In this document: positions 13,760 to 24,931 of the stretch, piece after piece | Layout: each line of letters starts with the position of its first letter | How positions within the stretch are numbered: the stretch's first letter is position 1 | NCBI RefSeq assembly: GCF_010882175.1 | Contig: NZ_WKLH01000003.1 | Location: 434,001 to 498,000 of the forward strand | Reading direction: 5' to 3' | Length of the DNA stretch: 64,000 bases | Source of the DNA: Mangrovibacterium lignilyticum | GTDB lineage: Bacteria > Bacteroidota > Bacteroidia > Bacteroidales > Prolixibacteraceae | Position numbers and translations under genes: made by a program | The notes under the pieces: model-generated | The model's input: only the letters and a program-made list of their open reading frames with translations | Database searches by the model: none | Told to the model about the DNA's origin: nothing

Positions 13760-16324
13760 ATGGCTTTTAAAAATGTGGTAACAGCGCCTCTAGTGGGCAA
13801 GGAGACTTTTTCTCAGGATGAAGCGTTTCAGGGAACGCTCAAGTATTTTAACGGCGATGATTTGGCTGCTCGTGTTTGGGTTAACAAATACGCTTTGAAA
13901 GATTCCTATGGTAATATCTATGAGCAAACACCGGACGATATGCACAAGCGTCTGGCGAAAGAGATTGCCCGAATCGAAAAAAAGTATGACAACCCAATGG
14001 GCGAACAGGAGATCTATCAACTGTTGAAAGACTTTAAGTACATTGTACCGCAAGGTGGTCCTATGACTGGTATTGGAAACGATTATCAGATTGCCTCCCT
14101 TTCTAATTGCTTTGTAGTTGGAAACGAAGGTAACTCTGATTCTTATGGCGGGATCATGAAAATTGATCAGGAACAAGTACAATTGATGAAGCGTCGCGGT
14201 GGTGTAGGTCACGATTTGTCGCATATCCGCCCCAAAGGCTCGCCTGTGAAAAACTCAGCGTTAACGTCAACCGGAATTGTACCGTTCATGGAACGTTATT
14301 CAAATTCGACACGTGAGGTTGCACAGGATGGACGTCGTGGAGCGTTGATGCTGTCTGTTTCAATTAAGCACCCCGATTCGGAAAAATTTATTGATGCGAA
14401 ACTGGAGCAAGGTAAGGTGACCGGGGCGAATGTATCTGTCAAAATTCATGACGATTTTATGAAGTCGGTTGAAAGCGGCGTTCCATACACGCAGCAGTAC
14501 CCGATTGATGCGCAAGTGCCTACCTATTCAAAAGATATTAATGCCAATGGCTTGTGGGAAAAGATCGTCCACAATGCCTGGAAATCGGCTGAGCCAGGAA
14601 TTTTGTTCTGGGATACGATTATTAAAGAATCAGTACCGGACTGTTACGATGATCTGGGATACAAAACAGTTTCGACAAACCCTTGTGGTGAAATTCCATT
14701 ATGTCCTTATGATAGTTGCCGTCTGATCGCTGTTAACTTGTTTTCTTACGTTGACAATCCTTTTACTGCTGAAGCAAAATTCAACTTTGATTTATTCAAG
14801 GAGCATGTGGCTTATGCACAGCGTATGATGGATGACATCATTGATCTGGAATTGGAAAAAATTGATGCTATTATTGGTAAGATCGATTCTGATCCGGAGG
14901 ACGAAGAAGTTAAACATACAGAACGTCGCTTGTGGGAGAAAATTCAAACGAAGGCGCGCGACGGTCGTCGTACCGGAGTTGGTATTACGGCAGAAGGAGA
15001 TATGCTGGCAGCTTTAGGATTGCGCTACGGAGCAGACGAAGCTACTGACTTCAGCGAAGAGATCCATAAAACACTGGCTATTGAAGCTTACCGTTCATCA
15101 GTAACTATGGCCAAAGAACGTGGTTCGTTTACAATCTACGATGCCGAGCGTGAGAAAAACAACCCGATGATCAACCGCATCCGCAAAGAAGATGAAGCTT
15201 TGTACCAGGACATGGTGAAGTATGGTCGTCGTAACATCGCTTTGCTGACCATTGCTCCTACCGGAACAACCAGTTTGATGACTCAGACGACTTCAGGTAT
15301 TGAGCCCGTATTTATGCCTGTTTACAAGCGTCGTCGTAAAGTGAATCCGAACGATAAAAATGTTCGTGTTGATTTTGTTGATGAAGTTGGCGATAGCTGG
15401 GAAGAATACATTGTGTTCCACCACAAATTCATCACCTGGATGAAGGCCAATGGAATTGATACGAGCAAGAATTATTCGGAAAAAGAACTGGACGATATCG
15501 TTAAGGAGTCACCTTACTATAAAGCTACTTCGAACGATGTAGACTGGATGAATAAAGTTCGCATGCAAGGACGTATTCAGAAATGGGTTGACCATTCCAT
15601 TAGTGTAACAATCAACCTGCCTGCTGATGCTGAGGAGGAATTGGTTGGAAAACTTTATTTCGAGGCTTGGAGAAGCGGATGTAAAGGTGTTACTGTTTAC
15701 CGCGATGGTTCCCGGTCGGGTGTGTTGCTTTCAAATAAAAAGGAAGTAAGTAAAGATGACGAATACAGCATGTTTTTCCCCACTAAACGTCCGGAAGAGT
15801 TAGATGCTGAAGTTGTACGCTTTCAAAATAATAAAGAAAAATGGGTTGCTTTCATCGGTTTAATTGATGATCTGCCTTATGAGATCTTTACCGGCTTGCA
15901 GGATGACGAAGATGGAATTTTACTTCCTCGTTCAGTGACACATGGTAAAATTATTAAGAGCCGCGATGAGCAAGGGAATTCACGTTACGACTTCCAATAC
16001 GCCAATAAACGTGGTTATAAAACAACCATCGAAGGATTGTCATACAAGTTTAACCCGGTATTCTGGAACTACGCCAAGCTAATTTCCGGAATCCTGCGTC
16101 ACGGTATGCCGATTCACAAAGTGGTTAATACAGTTACCAGTTTGCAATTGGACAACGATACCATCAATAGCTGGAAAGCCGGTGTGGCTCGTGCCCTGAA
16201 AAAATACATTCCGAACGGAACAGTTGCTGACGGAACGACCTGCGGCGAATGTGGTTCAAAGAATGTGATCTACCAGGAAGGATGTTTGACATGTCCTGAT
16301 TGCGGATCGTCGAAATGCGGATAA
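13760..16324 (+). CDS. nrdJ: Adenosylcobalamin-dependent (class II) ribonucleotide reductase
   Basis: This 854-residue protein reduces ribonucleotides to deoxyribonucleotides. SLSNCFVVG near residue 117 carries the first redox cysteine. STNPCGEIPLCPYDSC near residue 310 holds the expected thiyl-radical cysteine and active-site loop. LLTIAPTGTTSLM near residue 500 is the phosphate-binding region. The C-terminus has a CxxC-rich tail (CGECGS...CPDCGSSKCG), a probable zinc ribbon and redox tail. There is no adjacent nrdB, consistent with a cobalamin cofactor. The gene is monocistronic, with a promoter region upstream and a terminator at 16351-16384. It converges on the DUF4837 gene across the repeat array. 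Confidence 0.92.
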   Translation: MAFKNVVTAPLVGKETFSQDEAFQGTLKYFNGDDLAARVWVNKYALKDSYGNIYEQTPDDMHKRLAKEIARIEKKYDNPMGEQEIYQLLKDFKYIVPQGGPMTGIGNDYQIASLSNCFVVGNEGNSDSYGGIMKIDQEQVQLMKRRGGVGHDLSHIRPKGSPVKNSALTSTGIVPFMERYSNSTREVAQDGRRGALMLSVSIKHPDSEKFIDAKLEQGKVTGANVSVKIHDDFMKSVESGVPYTQQYPIDAQVPTYSKDINANGLWEKIVHNAWKSAEPGILFWDTIIKESVPDCYDDLGYKTVSTNPCGEIPLCPYDSCRLIAVNLFSYVDNPFTAEAKFNFDLFKEHVAYAQRMMDDIIDLELEKIDAIIGKIDSDPEDEEVKHTERRLWEKIQTKARDGRRTGVGITAEGDMLAALGLRYGADEATDFSEEIHKTLAIEAYRSSVTMAKERGSFTIYDAEREKNNPMINRIRKEDEALYQDMVKYGRRNIALLTIAPTGTTSLMTQTTSGIEPVFMPVYKRRRKVNPNDKNVRVDFVDEVGDSWEEYIVFHHKFITWMKANGIDTSKNYSEKELDDIVKESPYYKATSNDVDWMNKVRMQGRIQKWVDHSISVTINLPADAEEELVGKLYFEAWRSGCKGVTVYRDGSRSGVLLSNKKEVSKDDEYSMFFPTKRPEELDAEVVRFQNNKEKWVAFIGLIDDLPYEIFTGLQDDEDGILLPRSVTHGKIIKSRDEQGNSRYDFQYANKRGYKTTIEGLSYKFNPVFWNYAKLISGILRHGMPIHKVVNTVTSLQLDNDTINSWKAGVARALKKYIPNGTVADGTTCGECGSKNVIYQEGCLTCPDCGSSKCG

Positions 16325-16350
16325 TTAAGCGTTCGATTACCATACACAAG

Positions 16351-16384
16351 AGAGGCTGTCCCCAAAGGATGACCTCTTTTTTTT
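16351..16384 (+). terminator. Rho-independent terminator after nrdJ
   Basis: AGAGG (16351-16355) pairs with CCTCT (16373-16377), with further partial inner pairing, followed by eight T (16377-16384). The repeat array begins only a few bases beyond. Confidence 0.7.
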
Positions 16385-16389
16385 GCGGC

Positions 16390-16750
16390 CCTGTTGCTTC
16401 TCTCTCGGCCCTGTTGGTCGGACAGGTCGCCCTGTTGCTTTTTTCACGGTCCTGTTGCCGCGGCAGTGCGCCCTGTTGCTTTTTTCGGCCGTCCTGTTGT
16501 TGGGTGAACCATCCCTGTTCAAAAATCGGCCGCCCTGTCGGGTGGGGGGCTTCCCTGTTGGTTCGCCGGGGCGTCCTGTCGAACAGGGCGCTAAAAATTC
16601 CGACAGGGAGCACTGCCGCGGCAACAGGGAGCCAAATTTTCCGACAGGGCGGGTTTCCGGCTAACAGGGCGACAGCAAAACCGGCAGGACCGGGGCCTTG
16701 GTAGCAGGACGACAAAACAATCAACAGGGCGAAAAAAAGAACAGCAGGGA
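16390..16750. repeat. Two-armed 20-21-bp periodic array (10 direct CCTGT units, then 9 inverted units)
   Basis: CCTGT(T/C) cores start at 16390, 16410, 16431, 16451, 16472, 16493, 16514, 16534, 16554 and 16575, so spacing is always 20 or 21 bp. The complementary core (A/G)CAGG then starts at 16583, 16603, 16624, 16644, 16664, 16684, 16704, 16724 and 16744, spaced 20 or 21 bp. Between cores the sequence is diverged, but 16451-16469 and 16610-16628 are a perfect 19-nt inverted repeat. The whole region could fold as a long imperfect hairpin centred near 16540. Mixed 20/21 spacing breaks any reading frame, so it is not a coding repeat. It fills the gap between two convergent terminators. Confidence 0.85.
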
Positions 16751-16765
16751 GTCTTTCCCTGCTGT
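16730..16765 (-). terminator. Rho-independent terminator after the DUF4837 gene
   Basis: A perfect 10-bp stem (16741-16750 with 16756-16765) and a 5-nt loop read on the minus strand are followed by a T-rich run (TCTTTTTTT). The left stem contains the last unit of the array. Confidence 0.8.
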
Positions 16766-16841
16766 CGGCTATTCCAATTGACGCGTTGGTCAACCTTTTT
16801 CGTGTATATTTTACGCGTAAATTTCAGTATCGGCGGGCTGC

Positions 16842-17876
16842 TTAGTTGCCCATATTGATCTGGCTGTTGATCTTGTCATTCTTCGCCTGATCCGGAAGCA
16901 CAAGAGAATAAATCATCGCTTCTACTTGTCTCAGATAATTTCTTTTGTCGTAGCGCGGCGCATAAACAAATCCATCAGCAACGACCACCCGGTTGTTCGA
17001 AGCGTCCAAAACCGCTAAGCTAACGAAGGGGCCACCCATGAAATCATTTTCAACACGCCACAGTCCCCGAAGCTCGGCCGCATAATTTTTCTTAAAGTGA
17101 AACACATTAACTGTTGCAGGCACGCGGTGCTCAGTTGTCATATAGCTTCCGTTTGTTGGACCTTCGATATATTTTTTCAATACCGAGTCTCTTTTCGCCA
17201 ACAGGTAAGCTTCGGTGAAAGTACTGTCGGAAGTATACGGGAAAGCATAAACAGCGATGCCCTGCATAATCTCCGGGGTATCATAGCGCATCCAAATAAA
17301 GTCAGGGCCTTCATTGGCAACTTTAAAGCCAACCGGAATGGTCATTGCAACGTTAACATCTTTTTTGAGCGGTGCAATAACGGTCTTTTCATTGTATTTC
17401 GCGTAATTACCCATGGTGCGTTCCCGTTCTGCTTTCAGCAGGTAGGCCACAATTCGATCACCGTTTGATTTGAATACCTGTTCAAAGTCTTCACCCGATT
17501 TGGCCGAAATATTGATCACCGCCTGGGGCCATGCCCAAATATCCTTCTTAAACTCCACTTTTGCGGTGTCGATAGTCGGAGAGATACGCACATTAACAAT
17601 GTTGCGGCTTGTTTTGAAAATCTCTTTAAATGCTGAAGGAGGTACGCTGATGAGGTCGAAGATTGGTTCCTCCTGGGGAAGTGATATTTGCGGTTGAGCC
17701 AACGTTTTACGGATGCTCTCGCCCACATTTCCGTTCCAGGTTTCTTTGGGGATGACGACCACAACTTCTCCAGCTTTGCCGGTTACTTTTTTCCTTAGCT
17801 TGGTGTTATCACCACACGAACTTAATATCATACTAAAACTAAGGAATGCAAAGAAAATGAGGCTAATGCGTTTCAT
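16842..17876 (-). CDS. DUF4837 lipoprotein
   Basis: This 344-residue protein has a lipoprotein signal (basic start, hydrophobic stretch, lipobox LSSC near residue 20). The first part of the mature protein contains GKAGEVVVVIPKETW, and the sequence matches the Bacteroidota family DUF4837 as I recall it. No catalytic motif is recognised and the function is unknown; it is probably outer-membrane or periplasmic. Its own terminator lies at 16730-16765. It is separated by 122 bp from tatA, which has its own terminator, so it is probably transcribed independently. Confidence 0.75.
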   Translation of the reverse strand: MKRISLIFFAFLSFSMILSSCGDNTKLRKKVTGKAGEVVVVIPKETWNGNVGESIRKTLAQPQISLPQEEPIFDLISVPPSAFKEIFKTSRNIVNVRISPTIDTAKVEFKKDIWAWPQAVINISAKSGEDFEQVFKSNGDRIVAYLLKAERERTMGNYAKYNEKTVIAPLKKDVNVAMTIPVGFKVANEGPDFIWMRYDTPEIMQGIAVYAFPYTSDSTFTEAYLLAKRDSVLKKYIEGPTNGSYMTTEHRVPATVNVFHFKKNYAAELRGLWRVENDFMGGPFVSLAVLDASNNRVVVADGFVYAPRYDKRNYLRQVEAMIYSLVLPDQAKNDKINSQINMGN

Positions 17877-17949
17877 GTTGCTGAATTTTACGGATGTGTA
17901 AGAAGTCTTACAAAAATCTTACCAGAGTGATGAATTAGAAGGTTTTAAT

Positions 17950-17979
17950 AAAAAAATCCCGTCAGAAGAGTGACGGGAT
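17950..17979 (-). terminator. Terminator after tatA
   Basis: ATCCCGTCA (17956-17964) pairs perfectly with TGACGGGAT (17971-17979) over a 6-nt loop. On the minus strand the stem is followed by six T. Confidence 0.85.
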
Positions 17980-17998
17980 AGTACAAATATCGGTGTAT

Positions 17999-18199
17999 TT
18001 AATCTTTGTTCTTTTCTTTTGAGGTATCCTTTTCGTCTTCATCGTCTTCCGACGAAGCTTTTTTGAATTCTTTCATGCCTTTTCCCAAACCCTTCATAAG
18101 TTCCGGAATTTTACGACCTCCGAACAACAACAGTACAATCACGAGTATGATGATGATCTCTTGTGGACCGAACATGCCCAGAATAATTGATAAAAGCAT
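17999..18199 (-). CDS. tatA: Twin-arginine translocase subunit TatA
   Basis: This 66-residue protein has a short N-terminal membrane helix ending in [12 protein letters not shown], an amphipathic helix ([14 protein letters not shown]) and an acidic, charged tail, which is the TatA/E pattern. TatA oligomers form the pathway for folded proteins carrying RR signals. A plausible Tat substrate, the GH43-like protein at 35702-36793, is encoded in this window. No tatC is nearby. The gene ends at a strong hairpin, and a CAAAATTA sequence (minus-strand -7, TAATTTTG) lies at 18224-18231. Confidence 0.9.
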
Positions 18200-18247
18200 A
18201 GTCTATACGTTTAATGGTTTTTACAAAATTAGAAAAATAATTCCTTC

Positions 18248-19582
18248 TTAGTTAAAGAGTTTAATTATATCGTTGGCATTGGCGAAAAGCACCAGCCCCA
18301 ATAAGATAATCATTCCCGTAATTTGCGCATATTCCAGGAATTTCTCTCCCGGTTTTTTACCTGTAATCATTTCAAAAAGCAGGAATGTTACATGGCCACC
18401 GTCCAGTGCCGGAATTGGTAGCAGGTTCATCACCCCTAAAATGATTGACAGAAAAGCTGTCATGTTCCAGAAGGAATACCAATCCCATGCTCCCGGGAAG
18501 ATATTCCCGATAGAGATGAAACCTCCCAGCGATTCGTAGGCCTTTGTTTTGGGTGAAAAGATCAGCTTAAACTGCTTCAGGTAATCTTTGACCGTATTTA
18601 CGCCGCGCTTAATTCCTGCCGGGATCGATTCGGCGAACGTATATTTGATCGTTTTTGTGACCAGATAAGCAGTCGCTTCTTTGTCGAACTCAGGATAAAA
18701 TCCCAGTGTTCCGTCGTCGGCAACAGTAGCCGAGATTGTTTGGGGCTTGTCGTTGCGTACAATTTCAAATGTAACCTCCTGTTCTTTATGATTCCGAAGG
18801 AAACTGGTCAGTTGGTCGTAAAATTCAAAGGTTTGACCATCGACTGATACAAAATGGTCTCCTTTTTCCAGTCCGGCTAAGGCGGCCGGCGAATTCTTGA
18901 GAAGCTTCCGGACAGAGACTGCAAAAGGCATCCGAGGACTCATTTCTACCTTGCCTTTGATCAGCGGTACCAAGTGGTCGTCGGTAATAATGACATCCAT
19001 CTCTTGTCCGTCGCGTAGAACCTGAACGCTATGTGCCTTGTCAAGCACGACAGTTGGAAGGATTTTGTAGAAGTTCTCGATGTACTCGCCATCAACCGAA
19101 AGGATTTTGTCCCCGTTTTTCAACCCGATATCTTCACCGGCTTCATTCACCATAATACCATATTTGGCACTTTCGGTAGGCAGATATTCGGTGCCCCAAG
19201 CGTACAGGATCGCAATGTAAATTACGAAAGCAAGGATGAAGTTCATTAATACTCCACCAATCATGATCAGTAGTCGTTGGTAAGCTTTTTTCGAGCGGAA
19301 TTCCCATGGTTGCGGTTCTTGCGACAGCGCTTCTTTGTCCATCGACTCGTCAATCATCCCCGATATTTTGACATAGCCACCTAAGGGCAACCAGCCAACT
19401 CCGTACTCGGTATCGCCTTTTTTAACTTTAAAAAGTGAGAACCAGGGATCGAAGAAGAGGTAAAATTTTTCAACCCGTGTTTTAAACAGGCGTGCAAAGG
19501 CAAAGTGTCCAAACTCATGTAAAATAACCAAAAGTGAAAGACTTAAGATTAATTGGGCAGCTTTTATCAGTACTTGTTCCAT
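18248..19582 (-). CDS. rseP: Site-2 intramembrane metalloprotease RseP
   Basis: This 444-residue protein has HEFGH in the first membrane helix (zinc site, about residue 22), a PDZ domain (about 205-285) and NLLPIPALDGGH (about 385) supplying the third zinc ligand. This is the complete RseP architecture, slightly longer than E. coli RseP, with a split PDZ-like region after the first loop. It cleaves membrane-embedded anti-sigma factors and signal-peptide remnants. It follows dxr by 6 bp, in the dxr-rseP order that is common in bacteria. Confidence 0.94.
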   Translation of the reverse strand: MEQVLIKAAQLILSLSLLVILHEFGHFAFARLFKTRVEKFYLFFDPWFSLFKVKKGDTEYGVGWLPLGGYVKISGMIDESMDKEALSQEPQPWEFRSKKAYQRLLIMIGGVLMNFILAFVIYIAILYAWGTEYLPTESAKYGIMVNEAGEDIGLKNGDKILSVDGEYIENFYKILPTVVLDKAHSVQVLRDGQEMDVIITDDHLVPLIKGKVEMSPRMPFAVSVRKLLKNSPAALAGLEKGDHFVSVDGQTFEFYDQLTSFLRNHKEQEVTFEIVRNDKPQTISATVADDGTLGFYPEFDKEATAYLVTKTIKYTFAESIPAGIKRGVNTVKDYLKQFKLIFSPKTKAYESLGGFISIGNIFPGAWDWYSFWNMTAFLSIILGVMNLLPIPALDGGHVTFLLFEMITGKKPGEKFLEYAQITGMIILLGLVLFANANDIIKLFN

Positions 19583-19588
19583 TCGTTT

Positions 19589-20761
19589 CTAGTGTGTTTT
19601 TAAACTTCGTTCTTTAATTAATGAAGTTGTTAACAATCGTGTTTCCTTATCGGTTTGAATATAATCACTCAAATCCGGATTTTTTATGAAAGCAACTTTT
19701 TGCATGCTTTCTTCTATGATGTCGGGCATCTCCACAAAACGTATTTTTTCGCGCAGCAAAGCCTGTACCACAACTTCGTTGGCGGCGTTCAGAATACAGG
19801 GCATGTTGCCTGCCTGATCGAGGGCCTCAAAAGCCAGTGCAAGGTTACGAAAAATTTTTGTATCAGGCTTTTCGAATGTCAGGTTTGGGTATTTCATGAA
19901 GTCGAAGCGCTCGAAATCGGAAGGCAATCGCTGCGGGAAATTCATCGCATATTGAATTGGTAGTTTCATATCCGGGAGCCCCATTTGTGCTTTCATTGAG
20001 CCATCGCGGAATTGCACCAGCGAATGGATAATGCTTTGCGGATGAATGACCACATCAATTTGTTCGGGTTTCAGGTCGAATAACCATTTGGCTTCAATTA
20101 CCTCAAAGCCTTTGTTCATCATGCTGGCCGAGTCGATGGTGATTTTCGCTCCCATATCCCAGTTCGGGTGTTTCAATGCGTCGGCTGTGGTCACTTTTTC
20201 AAGTTGCTCCAGACTGAATCCCCGAAACGGTCCTCCCGATGCGGTGAGGTAAATTTTCTCAATCTCGTTCATGTGCTCGCCGGCCAGGCATTGGAAAATA
20301 GCCGAGTGCTCTGAGTCGACCGGAAAAATATTGACCTTGTTTTCGATTGCCTCGCGGGTGATGATTTCTCCGGCAACAACCAGCGTTTCTTTATTCGCCA
20401 AGGCAATGTGTTTCCCGGCGCGAATTGCGTTCAAGGTGGGTAATAGGCCCGAATAGCCGACCATGGCCGTCAGTACCATGTCGATCGAGTCCATCTGTAC
20501 AACTTGTTCCAGCGCATCTTTCCCGGCGTATATTTTAATGTCTTCGCCTGCCAGTGCTTCGCTCAGTACCTTGTAACGACACTCGTTGGCAACCACAACG
20601 GCATTGGGTTTAAATTTGCGGCTTTGTTCAATCAGTAAATCAATATTATTGTTAGCTGTCAGCACTTCAACCTCAAAATGATCGGGGTTTTGTTCGATCA
20701 CGTCGAGTGCCTGGGTACCGATGGAGCCGGTGGATCCAAGTATTGCGATTCTTTTTTTCAT
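19589..20761 (-). CDS. dxr: 1-deoxy-D-xylulose-5-phosphate reductoisomerase
   Basis: This 390-residue protein has an NADPH-binding start ILGSTGSIGTQALDV, the ALANKETLVVAG segment near residue 120, and PVDSEHSAIFQCL near residue 146 with the metal-binding D and E. NKGFEVIEAKWLF lies near residue 216. It catalyses the committed step of the MEP isoprenoid pathway, feeding the undecaprenyl carrier that UppP recycles. It lies 9 bp after the M23 peptidase gene and 6 bp before rseP, so these three are one operon. Confidence 0.96.
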   Translation of the reverse strand: MKKRIAILGSTGSIGTQALDVIEQNPDHFEVEVLTANNNIDLLIEQSRKFKPNAVVVANECRYKVLSEALAGEDIKIYAGKDALEQVVQMDSIDMVLTAMVGYSGLLPTLNAIRAGKHIALANKETLVVAGEIITREAIENKVNIFPVDSEHSAIFQCLAGEHMNEIEKIYLTASGGPFRGFSLEQLEKVTTADALKHPNWDMGAKITIDSASMMNKGFEVIEAKWLFDLKPEQIDVVIHPQSIIHSLVQFRDGSMKAQMGLPDMKLPIQYAMNFPQRLPSDFERFDFMKYPNLTFEKPDTKIFRNLALAFEALDQAGNMPCILNAANEVVVQALLREKIRFVEMPDIIEESMQKVAFIKNPDLSDYIQTDKETRLLTTSLIKERSLKTH

Positions 20762-20770
20762 TGATCAGGC

Positions 20771-21634
20771 TTAAAAGTCTATATATTCTTGTGGGTTTAG
20801 TGGGATTCCTTTGTACCAAAGTTCGAGGTGCAGATGGGGCCCGGTCGACAATTCACCGGTGTTTCCCATGAAGGCGATCGCTTCGCCTGCTTTCACAATA
20901 TCGCCAACTTTTTTCAAAAGTTCCGAGTTGTGCTTGTATACCGAAATAAGGTTGTTGGGGTGTTGAATGTATATGGCATAGCCGGTTTCAACAGTCCATC
21001 CGGCGAAAACTACGGTACCGTCTAATACCGCCGAGATACGGGCGTTGGGTAAACCAACAACATCTACCGCAAAATGATTGATATCTTCGTTGAATCCTTC
21101 AGTGACCATTCCTTTTATCGGACGAAAGAAATGAATATTGGCCAGACTGCTTGAGCTGTTCTCCTGGTCGGCAATCGATAAATCTAATTGTTCCTCCAAA
21201 AGGTGTTGTTCAAAGATCGAGTCGTGGTTATAGCTTTGCATATTTAGTTCGGCCGGTTTGAAAACCGTGTCGATATTCGAAATCTCATTCTCCGGTACTT
21301 CACCGTTCAAAAGGGTTTTTATGGTTTGGAAGTAGTTGTCGCGAAGGGTTAGCTGTGCCTCCAGTGAATCGACCATGATGGCATTTTTTACCATCAGTTC
21401 ACGTACATTGCCCGAGGGATAGCCCGGGATCAGCTCTTTGACCGGCGTTAGTGCAATGATCAGCACAGTGATGAAAATCAGGAAAAAACCACCCAGGCTC
21501 AGAATCAGGAGAACATTGATGCGGGTTAGCCGGGCACTCCATACTGTTTGGAAGGACGTATCATTATAAATGATGAGCCGGTACCGGTTTTTAAGTTTCT
21601 CAAGAATTTTCTTTTTTTTCTTTGTTTCTTTCAT
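20771..21634 (-). CDS. M23 family membrane-anchored metallopeptidase
   Basis: This is a 287-residue protein from the ATG at 21634. An upstream TTG at 21655 is possible but has no support. A lysine-rich cytoplasmic start is followed by one membrane helix (about 38-60), a coiled or linker region, and a C-terminal M23/LytM domain (about 180-287). HFAVD and HLHLE provide the three histidines and aspartate expected of an active zinc endopeptidase. Such enzymes cut peptidoglycan cross-bridges or activate amidases. It heads the dxr-rseP operon. A TAATTTTG -7-like element on the minus strand lies at 21653-21660. Confidence 0.88.
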   Translation of the reverse strand: MKETKKKKKILEKLKNRYRLIIYNDTSFQTVWSARLTRINVLLILSLGGFFLIFITVLIIALTPVKELIPGYPSGNVRELMVKNAIMVDSLEAQLTLRDNYFQTIKTLLNGEVPENEISNIDTVFKPAELNMQSYNHDSIFEQHLLEEQLDLSIADQENSSSSLANIHFFRPIKGMVTEGFNEDINHFAVDVVGLPNARISAVLDGTVVFAGWTVETGYAIYIQHPNNLISVYKHNSELLKKVGDIVKAGEAIAFMGNTGELSTGPHLHLELWYKGIPLNPQEYIDF

Positions 21635-21747
21635 GCTCCTGAATTGGATGGGCAAAATTAGCCAAATTAGGCATATAGCCCGCTTGGAGTGGCTGAAATT
21701 AATACTTTTTAACGCCAGAAGAAAATAAAAAAATATGCAGGCGGGAT

Positions 21748-21777
21748 TTGGATATTGAAAAACTTGTTCTATATTTG
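21748..21777 (+). promoter_or_regulatory. Consensus Bacteroidota promoter for tRNA-fMet
   Basis: TTG at 21748-21750, a 19-bp spacer and TATATTTG at 21770-21777 exactly fit the -33/-7 consensus. The tRNA starts 66 bp beyond. Confidence 0.85.
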
Positions 21778-21843
21778 CATCCGCATTCAGGAAGTGAAAT
21801 ACCTGATACGTTCAAAAAAAGACTAAAAATATTCAAAATATAT

Positions 21844-21916
<73 letters not shown>

Positions 21917-22050
21917 CTTCAATCCGCTGTAAGGCACGTATCACGTGAGTTGCAGCGGATTTTCACTTTTAAGGTGCGCACAAACTGCGCACAATACATT
22001 TCGGTAAATTTCCTCCGGGCTAAAACCTTAATTCCACGTTTTCATTATAC

Positions 22051-22058
22051 TATCTTTG
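22051..22058 (+). promoter_or_regulatory. Candidate -7 element for the GDCCVxC gene
   Basis: TATCTTTG fits TAnnTTTG and lies 38 bp before the ATG. The -33 position (TTA, 22028-22030, 20-bp spacer) has one mismatch to TTG. Confidence 0.5.
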
Positions 22059-22096
22059 ACGGATATTAGGCGTTATTGAAAATATTAAATTGAGTG

Positions 22097-22330
22097 ATGG
22101 AATCCTTCGACTTTCAAGATTTAAAACCAATTATACTTAGATCTGTCATAACATGCCCGAAGTGTGGTTTTCAGAGAGAAGAAATGATGCCCGAAACAGC
22201 GTGCAGTTTTTTTTATGAATGCACCAATTGCAACGCAATTTTGAAGCCAAAACCGGGTGATTGTTGTGTGTATTGTTCATACGGTTCGGTGCCATGTCCA
22301 CCAATTCAACAGGGTAACAGTTGTTCTTAG
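22097..22330 (+). CDS. GDCCVxC-domain small cysteine-rich protein
   Basis: This 77-residue protein starts at the ATG at 22097 (a GTG directly upstream would add one residue). It contains CPKCGFQ, CTNC and the family signature GDCCVYCSYGSVPCPP, with nine or more cysteines. This matches the NCBI family called GDCCVxC domain-containing (seleno)protein, some members of which use selenocysteine. Here all positions are ordinary Cys codons. The CxxC pairs suggest metal or zinc binding. The function is unknown, and heavy-metal handling has been guessed for relatives. It has its own promoter and no operon partner. Confidence 0.7.
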   Translation: MESFDFQDLKPIILRSVITCPKCGFQREEMMPETACSFFYECTNCNAILKPKPGDCCVYCSYGSVPCPPIQQGNSCS

Positions 22331-22561
22331 TTGCCGTTTAGAGAGGCGTGAAAAGTGGCTTGTTTTTAAAGGATTTGGTATTGCCGTCGTCGAATAAATG
22401 ACAACGTTCTATGAGGTTAAATAAATTGACCTTCCCCCGATACATCATCAGAATAAAGGCCGAAAAAGAATCCATTTCTGTTTTAAGACGGGATGTTTTT
22501 GCATATCAGCCGCTGCCCACAGGTTTGGACCCGGACTAATACATCCTATGCGCAAAAAAAA

Positions 22562-22584
22562 AGACCACCCATACCGGGCAGTCT
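22562..22584 (-). terminator. Terminator after the nitroreductase gene
   Basis: AGACCACCC (22562-22570) pairs with GGGCAGTCT (22576-22584) including two GU pairs. On the minus strand a run of T follows (A run at 22554-22562). Confidence 0.8.
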
Positions 22585-22607
22585 TTCATATCTTGCTTGT
22601 CGAATAA

Positions 22608-23237
22608 TTAATATTCAATCACAAATTCTTCTTTGGGGTTACGAACTTTCTTCATGGGTGCCAACCAGTCTTCGTTGTCGCGGTAACCGATCGGTAGCAT
22701 CGTAACACTTTTCAGCCCCTTCGATTTTAAATCAAGCAGCTCGTCCAACTCTTCAGTGGTAAAGCCTTCTACCGGCGTACAGTCAACTTTAAGCTCTGCT
22801 GCCTGCGCAATGGCCAACCCGAAGGCAATGTAAGCCTGTCGGGCAGTGTGTACAAAATTTTCTTCGGCTGTTTGGGGGAGGTAAGCGGCTTTCAGTTTGT
22901 CGGTGTACGAGCCAAAACGGCCGCGAGGCAAGCCACGCTCGTCGGTGGTGTAGTCGTAAATTTTGTCGATGCGCTCTTCAGTATAGCGGTCCCAGGCAGC
23001 AAATACCAGCACGTGTGAGGCTTCGGCCATAATTTCCTGTCCCCAGGCAATGGGTACCATTTTTTCTTTCAATTCCTGGTTCGAAACAACAATTACCCGG
23101 AACTGTTGCAAACCCGATGAGGTTGGTGCCAGGCGGGCAGCTTCAACAATCTTATCGACATCTTCCTGCGCTACTTTGCGCGTTGGGTCGTACTTCTTCG
23201 TGGCGTAACGCCAGTTTAAATTTTCCAGTAATGACAT
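22608..23237 (-). CDS. NAD(P)H-dependent nitroreductase family protein
   Basis: This 209-residue protein begins NLNWRYATKKYDPTRKV and contains RLAPTSSGLQQFRVIVV (FMN phosphate-binding region) and GFTTEELDELL/MLPIGYRDNEDWLAP near the C-terminus, typical of NfsB-like FMN nitroreductases. It reduces quinones and nitro compounds with NAD(P)H. It lies 39 bp downstream of ohrR on the same strand and ends at a strong terminator, so it is probably co-transcribed with and controlled by OhrR. The physiological substrate is unknown. Confidence 0.88.
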   Translation of the reverse strand: MSLLENLNWRYATKKYDPTRKVAQEDVDKIVEAARLAPTSSGLQQFRVIVVSNQELKEKMVPIAWGQEIMAEASHVLVFAAWDRYTEERIDKIYDYTTDERGLPRGRFGSYTDKLKAAYLPQTAEENFVHTARQAYIAFGLAIAQAAELKVDCTPVEGFTTEELDELLDLKSKGLKSVTMLPIGYRDNEDWLAPMKKVRNPKEEFVIEY

Positions 23238-23276
23238 GTTCTGTTTTCTTTTTTATTGTTCTTGTAATTAATAGAC

Positions 23277-23711
23277 TCAGTTTTTGCACGACTTCTTATG
23301 CAGAATTTTCAGAATCACTTCTTTGAGTTCCAATAGTTCTTCAGCCGTTACGTTCATGGCTTCCATCACGTTTTGCGGCAGCTGCGCCGCTTTGGTTTTC
23401 AATTCCCGGCCGGCATCGGTCAGGTTAATTTCGACCACCCGCTCGTCGCTCGGCCTGCGGTTGCGAATCAGGAGCCCTTTGGCCTCGAGCCGTTTCAGCA
23501 GGGGAGTTAAGGTGCCGCTGTCGAGCTGCAACTTACAACCAATCTGGTTAACGCACTGCGGTTCTTCTTCCCACAAGGTCATCAGCACCAGATATTGCGG
23601 GTAGGTAATGTCCAGTTCGTCCAGAAACGGGCGGTACCTGCTGATGATCTCCCGCGATAAGGTGTAAACGGGAAAGCAAACCTGGTTTTCTAATTTCAAT
23701 CGGTCGTCCAT
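23277..23711 (-). CDS. OhrR-like MarR-family redox regulator
   Basis: This is a 144-residue protein from the ATG at 23711. The frame stays open far upstream, but only through the 21-bp repeat array, and a promoter lies just upstream of this ATG, so the longer start is rejected. The N-terminus NQVCFPVYTLSREI has a cysteine at residue 12 in the position of the OhrR peroxide-sensing Cys. The winged helix follows (QLDSGTLTPLLKRLEAKGLL), with the DERVVEI wing. Another cysteine near the C-terminus (KKSCKN) could be a resolving partner, as in two-Cys OhrR proteins. It likely represses its own gene and the nitroreductase. Confidence 0.8.
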   Translation of the reverse strand: MDDRLKLENQVCFPVYTLSREIISRYRPFLDELDITYPQYLVLMTLWEEEPQCVNQIGCKLQLDSGTLTPLLKRLEAKGLLIRNRRPSDERVVEINLTDAGRELKTKAAQLPQNVMEAMNVTAEELLELKEVILKILHKKSCKN

Positions 23712-23729
23712 GACTTTATTTTGATGCAG

Positions 23730-23762
23730 CAAATATAGGTTGAAAATAAATTGTGCGCAATT
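23730..23762 (-). promoter_or_regulatory. ohrR promoter with overlapping palindromic operator
   Basis: On the minus strand TTG (23758-23760), a 20-bp spacer and TATATTTG (23730-23737) form a consensus promoter. AATTG-TGCG-CAATT (23749-23762) is a perfect 5-bp inverted repeat covering the -33 box, a sensible site for autorepression by a MarR dimer. AT-rich AATT-containing operators are known for OhrR in other bacteria. Confidence 0.6.
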
Positions 23763-23803
23763 GAATGGCGTAACATTTAAAGATAAGGTAACAAAACGGA
23801 TGT

Positions 23804-24139
23804 CGATGTCCGGTATTGGAGCGGCGAACGGTTGGGGGAGCGCAGCGAACTGCCGGGTGAAGGTTTCGACGTCCCGGGGTACGACGGCGACCTGCCGGGA
23901 AGTCGTGGCGATGAGCAAAGGTTGAATGGCGAACCAGCCGGGCGATCCGGCGGACAAACAGGATTGTGGTTCGATGTTCGAGGGCAAGCTTTCGATGTTC
24001 CGGGTTGAGCTTTCGATGACCCAGGCTAAGGCTGCGATGTTCGGGGGTGAGGTTTCGATGCTCGGGGTAGAGGCGGCGATGTGGTCGACTGCCCCCGCGA
24101 TGTTGGCCGTTAAGTTTGCGTATGGTGCCGGTTAGCGGG
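23804..24139. repeat. Sixteen-unit array with an exact 21-bp period
   Basis: A CGA(T/A) core recurs at 23804 and then every 21 bp through 24119 (16 positions, none shifted). The approximate consensus is CGATGTTC-SGGGKTGAGGTT. Units at 23972, 23993, 24035 and 24056 are closest to it and the outer units are heavily diverged. Because 21 is divisible by three, several frames are open and show heptapeptide-like repeats on both strands. None has a convincing start or ribosome site. It occupies the whole gap between the terminator at 24146-24181 and the ohrR promoter. Confidence 0.85.
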
Positions 24140-24145
24140 TGAAAA

Positions 24146-24181
24146 TAAAAAGGCCACTCCCTCACGGAAGCGGCCTTTTTC
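24146..24181 (-). terminator. Terminator after the 236-residue helical protein gene (bidirectional)
   Basis: AAAAAGGCC... pairs with GGCCTTTTT around CACTCCCTCACGGAAGC, giving T runs on both strands. Confidence 0.75.
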
Positions 24182-24220
24182 CTTTAAAACCAATCGATGT
24201 ACCAAGTGATGTTTCTGTTT

Positions 24221-24931
24221 TTATTCCGGAACTTCTTCCGTTTTTGTCACGGGATTATTCATGTTGGCGACCACCCGGCTAAAGGTAAACTGGGCAGCCA
24301 GCAAGGGTTTGTCTTCGTAATACTGAGCCGCAATTTTACAAATGCCGATGATCTCGTCGTAAATGGCATTCAGTTCGGCCAGGGCTTCTTCGGTTATTTC
24401 CTGGCTGGTTTGTTTCAGACTTTCCTGGTTTACATTGGCCTGTTCCATTTGTGCGGCATAGCCAATGATGGTTTCAATGAGTACCGGGTTGGTTCCTTTG
24501 CCGGCGATTTCGGTTTTCAGCTCGTCGGTCATTCCTTTATCGAAAGCGTACAGCAGTTGAATTAGTGCTTCCTGATCGTCGTTTTGTACAGCTGCCCAGT
24601 TGGCCTGATAGCCCAGTGTTTGCAATATTTCGGCGGCATTGGGCTTAAAGTCGACCTCGATCTGCGTTTTCAGAAACGAGAGTGCCTTTTGTGCCGGTTG
24701 TTTGATCGATTCGAGCAGATGTGTTGCCTGGCGTTGCTGTGCTTTCTTGTCGAGCCCCAGGTACTTGTTAATGGCACTGGTAATCCGGGTTTCAACGGCG
24801 GTTGCAAACAAATCGGTCCAGTTTGTACGAATAAGCGAGAGCTCGGCCAGGTTTGTTCTGAAACTTATAAGAATGGTTTTGGACGCCATGAGCATATCGA
24901 CGTCTTTGTTATGATAATTTCGGGTTGCCAT
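24221..24931 (-). CDS. Hypothetical helical protein
   Basis: This 236-residue protein has no signal peptide or membrane segment. It is rich in Ala, Leu, Glu and Gln, with predicted helices throughout. Stretches such as LDKKAQQRQATHLLESIKQ and EITEEALAELNAIYDEIIG suggest a helical bundle. I do not recognise a family. It is preceded by about 400 bp of non-coding DNA and ends at a strong terminator, so it is probably monocistronic. The neighbours are redox genes, but nothing in the sequence ties it to that role. Confidence 0.6.
   Translation of the reverse strand: MATRNYHNKDVDMLMASKTILISFRTNLAELSLIRTNWTDLFATAVETRITSAINKYLGLDKKAQQRQATHLLESIKQPAQKALSFLKTQIEVDFKPNAAEILQTLGYQANWAAVQNDDQEALIQLLYAFDKGMTDELKTEIAGKGTNPVLIETIIGYAAQMEQANVNQESLKQTSQEITEEALAELNAIYDEIIGICKIAAQYYEDKPLLAAQFTFSRVVANMNNPVTKTEEVPE

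Follow-up and report, generated by a model that had tools for sequence, protein, structure and literature searches.

Introduction

ParR proteins bind direct repeats and the DNA wraps around ParR. The repeats of pSK41 ParR are 20 bp long, and words differ between families (available part of PMC9426499). REP and REPIN sequences are dispersed intergenic repeats in an inverted arrangement. They are tied to a nearby gene; the RAYT is a tyrosine transposase (available part of PMC3116915). BrickBuilt loci of Porphyromonas gingivalis consist of 23-nt intergenic repeats with conserved and non-conserved sites. According to the same source, they have leader and tail parts and IS-like terminal inverted repeats. 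The older 464/PgRS repeats of this species are 41 nt long (available part of PMC4596501).

Here, we describe an array of phased repeats in a 64-kb stretch of Mangrovibacterium lignilyticum DNA, hereafter the window. The array covers ~360 bp (16390-16748). It has two arms, in which ~19 copies of one short word change orientation at the centre. We suggest that it works most like ParR on parC. In both cases, a private array of direct repeats can lie near the gene of a DNA-binding protein, putative in ours. The arrays considered here differ in being chromosomal and two-armed, with dispersed solo copies. No ParM-like neighbour was seen, as judged from the matches of neighbouring genes. With REPINs and RAYTs, our arrays share a dispersed intergenic location, an inverted layout and a nearby gene. 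However, they are phased at 20-21 bp, there are few per word per genome, and the linked proteins tested have no transposase match. For REPINs, near-identical dispersed copies would be expected; spacers look unlike in the genome studied here, but Maribellus sp. CM-23 has related copies. BrickBuilt and 464/PgRS are likewise intergenic tandem repeats in Bacteroidales. Unlike our facing arms at 20-21 bp, BrickBuilt has a period of 23 nt, and the available part of PMC4596501 names no linked protein. The first-pass annotation of the window likened the array to iterons and centromere-like arrays. This is fair as a description of how the array may work, and does not amount to membership in such a class. 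The literature searched, with most subscription papers outside it, holds no description of such arrays or protein-array pairs. We rate private words paired with small proteins as a kind new to that literature.

A phased two-armed array

Features of the window are collected in Table 1. Cores of the forward (F) arm start at 16390, 16410, 16431, 16451, 16472, 16493, 16514, 16534, 16554 and 16575 (gaps of 20, 21, 20, 21, 21, 21, 20, 20 and 21 bp). Those of the reverse (R) arm start at 16583, 16603, 16624, 16644, 16664, 16684, 16704, 16724 and 16744 (gaps of 20, 21, 20, 20, 20, 20, 20 and 20 bp). The positions confirm the first-pass description of ten cores followed by nine inverted ones, all 20 or 21 bp apart. 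The perfect 19-nt inverted match reported between the arms is also exact. It pairs units of unequal rank from the centre. Hence, it is not a mirror pair. The mean core gap is 20.56 bp in the F arm and 20.13 bp in the R arm. Phasing at about two helical turns, as had been claimed, holds, but the cores would share one face of the helix only if the local helical repeat were near 10.1-10.3 bp. With 10.5 bp to a turn, they would drift slowly round the helix. We also considered a codon repeat, which was rejected. Mechanical ORFs of up to 209 aa span the array, yet gaps of 20 and 21 bp together break the reading frame, as the annotation had argued.

Table 1. Coordinates of features in the window.
Feature	Position	Strand	Basis
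854-aa ribonucleotide reductase gene (nrdJ of the first-pass annotation)	13760..16324	+	PF02867, E 1.3e-93
Terminator 3' of the ribonucleotide reductase gene	~16350..16386	+	by eye
F arm, ten cores of CCTGT spaced 20 or 21 bp	16390..16579	+	sequence layout
Left arm, exact 19-nt inverted match (partner 16610-16628)	16451..16469	+	sequence
Centre, CCTGT-CGA-ACAGG	16575..16587	.	sequence layout
R arm, nine cores of (A/G)CAGG spaced 20 or 21 bp	16583..16748	-	sequence layout
Right arm, exact 19-nt inverted match (partner 16451-16469)	16610..16628	-	sequence
Terminator-like site of the DUF4837 gene, includes outermost R core	16740..16766	-	terminator scan
DUF4837 protein gene	16842..17876	-	PF16125, E 1.1e-102
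Second array, with one arm; core CGATG or CGAnn every 21 bp	23804..24102	+	chain search; units 23804-23951 by eye
Family B gene (236-aa product), with its end just short of the CGATG array	24221..24931	-	ORF and family search

To compare the periodicity with chance, chains of at least four equal 5-mers were counted. At 20/21 bp, the window contains only the CCTGT array and a chain at 23972-24102, in the CGATG array. No such chains arose in 20 first-order Markov shuffles, and there were none at six other gap pairs in the window. In 464 kb of the same genome, window included, merged chains numbered four at 20/21 bp, five at 21/22 and three at 41/42. A further two were seen at 15/16, two at 16/17 and one each at 22/23 and 31/32, with none at 13 other gap pairs. 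For 420 kb of the congener G003, the counts were two at 20/21 (one a 7-bp repeat), two at 21/22, two at 41/42, one each at 13/14 and 14/15, and none at 15 other pairs. Across both genomes, therefore, chains are few and mostly at 20-22 bp and double that.

The flanking sequence was examined in the same way. The gene called nrdJ is borne out as a ribonucleotide reductase. A terminator between it and the array was visible by eye, as the annotation had it, but is absent from the terminator-scan list. The other end agrees fully; the last core sits in the stem of the minus-strand site 16766-16740. For replication iterons, a Rep initiator gene is expected beside the array. None adjoins the window array, whose neighbours are the ribonucleotide reductase and DUF4837 genes. 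By profile matches of both, neither is a small-protein gene of the array-linked kind described below. Known structured RNAs gave no Rfam match for the array in a search of 16000-24300, where the sole match over the gathering score is a tRNA gene at 21844-21916. Overall, the view that this is a phased array of short sites, unlike an ordinary terminator, is supported. We conclude that the array is real, and neither a chance pattern nor an ordinary terminator.

Related arrays in the same genome and in other Bacteroidota

The window's genome (G000) has three two-armed CCTGT arrays: that of the window, C8:560201-560602 and C9:1425870-1426209. The latter two share its geometry, with the centre CCTGT-TGA-ACAGG. 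A reversed-pattern control in G000, with core spacings of 19-22 bp allowed, gave no hits. By eye, spacers are unlike among the three arrays. The congeners G001 and G002 also carry CCTGT arrays. A pattern limited to spacings of 19-20 bp matched in nine of 61 genomes; this figure does not count 20/21-bp arrays as such, and the matches in G029 and G004 are repeats of another kind. The third congener, G003, has a CGAGT array with a period of 21 bp and the same centre geometry. Centres of 6+1+6 form were also seen, by eye, with the words GGTTAC, CCTTCG and AGTACC.

We scanned a genome collection (84,980 species) with the pattern CCTGT-N15/16-CCTGT-NNN-ACAGG-N15/16-ACAGG. This identified 41 places, 37 of which are in Bacteroidota by title. 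They belong to Maribellus, Draconibacterium (Prolixibacteraceae), Mariniphaga, Sunxiuqinia, Labilibaculum (Marinifilaceae), Ancylomarina and MAGs. G011, of the same family as the window, is 100 per cent identical to Mariniphaga sediminis over 2596 and 2189 bp. The four remaining matches are in Acidobacteria, Anaerolineae, Citreicella and Pantoea. For anatomy, we kept 35 of the 41, having dropped L081, L082, L088, L093, L095 and L109 as short or non-Bacteroidota. According to the first-pass annotation, relatives without such arrays would have pointed to chance or a decaying minisatellite. Related genomes carry arrays of the same kind, so this objection falls away.

No gene family recurs beside the arrays in more than three of 48 loci. 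The annotation had also suggested a comparison with convergent gene ends. Crude ORF calls were made at 46 CCTGT loci, 40 of which have a gene on each side. Flanking genes converge in 16 of the 40 (two rows, L091 and G011_C19, being one place), but are co-directional in 18 and divergent in six. Two of the three CCTGT arrays in G000 have convergent flanks. An association with convergent gene ends is thus borne out only in part.

Between the same two genes, the congener G003 has no array, and its flanks at this site are much diverged. At the corresponding site of G001 and G002 (ends of L114 and L113, respectively) there is a different array, made of TCTACAAATTGTAGA-type TCTAC palindromes ~41 bp, or four helical turns, apart. 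Hence, the site is open to different arrays. The 41-nt PgRS repeats may be worth comparing with these TCTAC arrays, to which the P. gingivalis repeats are possibly akin. The array word varies between species and, as CCTGT versus CGATG, inside the window itself.

Cores are kept and spacers are not

Corresponding arrays were aligned in twelve comparisons, eleven between genomes and one of an in-genome duplicate (L087/L089). We excluded the central four cores, by which the loci had been identified. Differences affect 20 of 443 core sites and 450 of 1810 spacer sites, figures that are rough because core positions were taken from the first member (one mismatch allowed at most), comparisons share members and two with G025 align poorly. 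The contrast is also seen in close pairs: cores differ at 1/45 sites and spacers at 16/171 for L070/L077, and at 0/35 and 13/141 for L097/L107. It is weaker for L071/L110 (1/35 and 10/184). Corresponding arrays also include an internal 61-bp gap, equal to three units, and gaps of 19-20 bp, some at array ends. Single-base indels occur inside them too.

A mirror-image hairpin or cruciform was considered and rejected. Arm-to-arm spacer likeness is 0.410 for units of equal rank (139 pairs) and 0.392 for those of unequal rank (932 pairs). Per array, the difference is 0.007 ± 0.010 (37 arrays). Equal-rank spacers are no more alike than others; hence, a specific long hairpin is not what is kept. Cores differ at few sites and spacers at many, and the arms are not mirror copies. 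Consequently, going by these alignments, it is the cores, as DNA, that seem to be kept.

Mean unit length is 20.0 bp in G001 and 21.0 in G003. Between these values lie most Maribellus and Draconibacterium arrays (~20.2-20.45), those of G000 (20.35-20.5) and those of some MAGs (20.7-20.8). We also asked if the order of 20- and 21-bp gaps, the gap word, is coherent in phase. Residual variance was 0.090 versus 0.129 after permutation (31 arms). However, one arm alone fell below 0.05 (G000_C8 F, 0.016), and gap words are common within clades, whose arms inherit them. Phase coherence is therefore given little weight.

In CCTGT arrays of other genomes, offset 12-15, counted from the core, is marked by an A-rich stretch. 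It is also present, roughly in register, in 11 arrays built of other words, and is weak in the three CCTGT arrays of G000. A-run length is not greater in 20-bp than in 21-bp units (p 0.21). Across 37 related arrays, longer A-runs go with a shorter mean unit (rho -0.40, p 0.015, uncorrected for relatedness). Mean unit length does not track AT content in the 37.

Genes for small proteins adjoin arrays

In five loci (L080 of Draconibacterium mangrovi, L096, L100, L106 of Maribellus luteus, and G025) the gene of a ~245-aa protein, family A, is followed by a CCTGT array. Six bases separate the stop codon from the outermost core in L080, L100, L106 and G025, and fourteen in L105. A family A relative precedes the CGAGT array of G003. 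We collected family A from 41 and 295 genomes, with matches in 6 and 15, respectively. The first set provided nine of 13 places, four fragments being dropped. The second provided 28 of 35 (30 loci given, minus one duplicate and one fragment). Chains of at least three units at 20/21 bp within 700 bp lie downstream of 18/37 genes and upstream of 1/37. At other gap pairs, downstream and upstream counts are 15 versus 3 (21/22), 19 versus 4 (41/42) and 5 versus 0 (19/20), and 0 or 1 at the remaining pairs from 12/13 to 32/33. Without nine loci seen beforehand, the 20/21 figures are 14/28 and 1/28 (Fisher p 5e-10 versus control ORFs). The control ORFs, chosen mechanically at 180-300 aa from two genomes only, have such chains downstream in 5/164 cases and upstream in 2/164.

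The gene beside the second array of the window belongs to family B, and a terminator at ~24150-24185 (by eye) lies between them. Family B has chains downstream in 15/30 loci and upstream in 3/30, a count that covers 30 of 51 places and retains likely mispicked ORFs (for example L259, L269 and L278). Leaving out the two loci of G000 gives 13/28 and 3/28. In family A and in family B alike, contig ends shorten four upstream regions, which biases the comparison towards 'downstream'. No downstream chain of three at 20/21 bp was found for 19/37 family A and 15/30 family B members. The words in family A arrays include ATGGG, GACTC, GGTAC, GCTAA, GTAAC, CATTC, CGAAG, TGCAA, TCCGA, TAACC, CTAAT, TCGGG and GCAGG. 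They differ from locus to locus, and many of the arrays are one-armed.

Both members seen of another group, family C, have a 21-bp array downstream (L170 and L171). The family C protein is 222 aa long, the two loci have two neighbour genes in common and the units of L171 are nearly identical. PQLLE proteins (NCBIfam NF052641) have an array upstream at three of the seven places over the cut-off (L202, L204 and L205). The same is true of L210, below the cut-off. The rest of the 11 PQLLE loci inspected have a chain of three at most. NF052641 is the sole model that touches both family A and family B, and does so weakly; some of its members have 21-bp arrays, on the upstream side. Family A is not a member, scoring 18.4 (L080) and 15.1 bits (L069) against a cut-off of 80. 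Places in G000 score 24.7 and 21.3 bits against the same cut-off. The library row for NF052641 gives no function.

Profile-profile comparison by hhalign found no match of family A with B or C, for which the profiles have two rows each. None of the proteins tested from families A, B and C, among them family A of L080 and L106, has a Pfam match, and PADLOC found none for four proteins. Searches of linked proteins with Pfam, NCBIfam and PHROGs gave no transposase match. In viral contigs, family A was confirmed in none of 48 pattern matches, and the exact array pattern did not occur. One family A protein had no match in plasmids. We conclude that protein genes and arrays are linked in Bacteroidota groups of ~220-250-aa proteins.

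The C-terminal helix of family A varies with the array word

A structural model of family A, built from five sequences, is all helical (mean pLDDT 87.3, pTM 0.67; the last residues are of low confidence). ParR has a ribbon-helix-helix; Foldseek found no match to the model at E 0.001 in PDB or BFVD. The best VIA row (2rld, Z 8.4) does not rise above the noise given for helical bundles. For the family B protein of the window, a single-sequence model (pLDDT 43.5) was set aside. Two short predicted helices, 220-226 and 229-240, end the family A model. They follow a conserved stretch, GKYVFW..P.R.KGY.S.Y, and the residues past its last Y change with the word.

At this position, YW...N is found in seven proteins or fragments linked to CCTGT. 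Four are full length (L080, L106, L066 and L105), one is cut by a contig end (L100), one has a broken frame (L096) and one is a 99-aa C-terminal fragment (L065). Of the other CCTGT-linked tails, that of L083 (partial) is YF...N and that of the remnant L073 is YRRKQH. Two GGTTAC members have YMK.KVAKSK. Body identity of L155 is 74 per cent with L080 and 81 per cent with L106, yet L155 has YRRKHR and another word, CTTTCC. L105 is ~42 per cent identical to L080, and still has YW...N and CCTGTT.

We compared helix identity between proteins with the same and with different words. For body identity of 0.50-0.80, it is 0.74 (13 same-word pairs) versus 0.27 (45 different-word pairs). For body identity of 0.35-0.50, it is 0.34 (13 pairs) versus 0.21 (163 pairs). 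Permutation of labels attained the observed value in 0/2000 trials, with same-word pairs mostly from one clade and several of their proteins fragments. There are exceptions. A CGAGTA-linked protein has FWRKKN, near the CCTGTT type YW...N, and the helices of TTTGCA and ATTAG proteins are 0.8 alike. Short-tailed family A members have arrays but not the variable helix. We conclude that, in these alignments, the predicted C-terminal helix of family A covaries with the word beyond overall identity.

Solo arrays

Six of the 35 CCTGT arrays kept adjoin a family A gene or part of one, and one adjoins a remnant. No family A gene was detected beside the others, the window array among them, some of which have one flank off the contig. 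Linked and solo arrays with the same word also coexist. In G229, a single contig, GTAAC has one linked array and two solo, and each solo site has a counterpart in G314, flanked by the same genes. For CGAGT in G003, there is one of each. Reversed-pattern controls of these word scans gave matches in some genomes (G001 3, G229 9, G128 1, G308 1), so that arrays were judged by unit layout. Solo arrays at the same place across species are L070/L077, L071/L110, L097/L104/L107 and the two sites of G229/G314.

Maribellus sp. CM-23 has three related copies (L077, L087 and L089), and the flanks of L087 and L089 are 91 per cent alike over 419 bp. Hence, duplication spreads some arrays. A family A search of G000 found no CCTGT-linked gene; the sole family A gene has a CCATTGG array. 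The candidate reader of the G000 arrays may be an unrecognised protein, or the arrays may be orphaned.

Discussion

We give a slightly better than even chance to the following reading: the window feature is a solo two-armed operator array of half-sites for a putative small protein, and acts as DNA. Briefly, a small sequence-specific protein would bind each CCTGT(T) core. Assembly would begin at the near-palindromic centre (a 6-mer, 1 nt and the inverted 6-mer). From there, an ordered nucleoprotein, one-faced or gently wrapped, would grow along both arms. The A-rich stretch would bend the DNA in phase, and a repeat of ~20.3 bp, set against 10.5 bp per turn, would suit DNA winding gently round protein. 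The likely readers are Bacteroidota proteins of ~220-250 aa, many of them encoded next to an array with a word of their own. Elsewhere in the genome, solo arrays of the same word would be sites in trans. That a protein binds the array, nucleates at its centre and wraps the DNA is inferred, as is any role; an architectural or anchoring role would be a guess.

Alternatively, the array could be a non-autonomous mobile or duplicating element, REPIN- or MITE-like, with the linked protein as part of its machinery. The array-free site in G003, the TCTAC array in its place in G001 and G002, the dispersal of solo arrays, the gene remnants that adjoin some arrays and the plainly related copies in Maribellus sp. 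CM-23 would all fit. Nevertheless, spacers look unlike in the three G000 arrays, solo arrays stay at the same sites between species, and transposase matches were absent from the linked proteins tested. We consider this explanation unlikely. An RNA-level function, in which the transcribed array forms a long imperfect hairpin, acts as a double terminator or RNA stabiliser and keeps its cores by pairing, is quite improbable in our judgement. The fold is strong (377 nt, z -8.0; 0/100 shuffles as good). Both array ends merge with terminators, and there are six terminator-like sites versus 1.1 expected. Against this, complementarity between the arms of the 37 arrays is no higher for spacers of equal rank than for the rest. 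Moreover, gap words differ between arms of one array, many such arrays are one-armed, and no Rfam family other than tRNA was found in 16000-24300.

An old minisatellite, with a core surviving by chance or gene conversion, would explain the 61-bp gap of three units, the gaps of 19-20 bp and the near homogeneity of array L171. Homogenisation would keep spacers as well, yet cores alone are kept, which speaks against this origin. So does the A-rich stretch, found at about the same offset with unrelated words. It is, to our minds, very unlikely.

The operator-array reading can be extended, with a little less than even confidence, to a wider class. Bacteroidota would then have protein-array pairs of a class not described before. 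Every small protein would read its own word, via an exchangeable C-terminal recognition helix, in an array with a site every two helical turns. Solo arrays of the same word, the window array among them, would be dispersed in the chromosome, with an ordered or wrapped filament growing outward from the central palindrome. Such arrays would be a bacterial analogue of satellite DNA and have a binding protein of their own. If true, there would be a natural set of matched pairs of word and recognition helix in one protein scaffold, and a code readable from sequence. Bacteria would have their own version of satellite DNA, dedicated binders included, and intergenic repeats of a class overlooked by annotation would be accounted for. 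As the proteins tested from these three families match nothing in Pfam or PADLOC, any binding result would open a new family.

Further arrays

Other arrays were seen in passing. G000 has three CGAGT arrays (C9:290266-290396, C9:782312-782400 and C10:362244-362395; L242, L243 and L244) with a partly common 21-bp unit. One is upstream of a 208-aa protein of another family and two are without such a neighbour. In G003, a CTAACC chain at ~21 bp (L146:10770-10900) lies between two genes, and no small-protein gene adjoins it. At L155, an ORF that resembles a REP-associated tyrosine transposase by eye is downstream of the family A gene and array. Finally, at L128 (4881-4948, 5270-5839 and 6449-6553), an AAACT chain lies downstream of a 189-aa protein of a further family, with a CTGTAC chain farther along.
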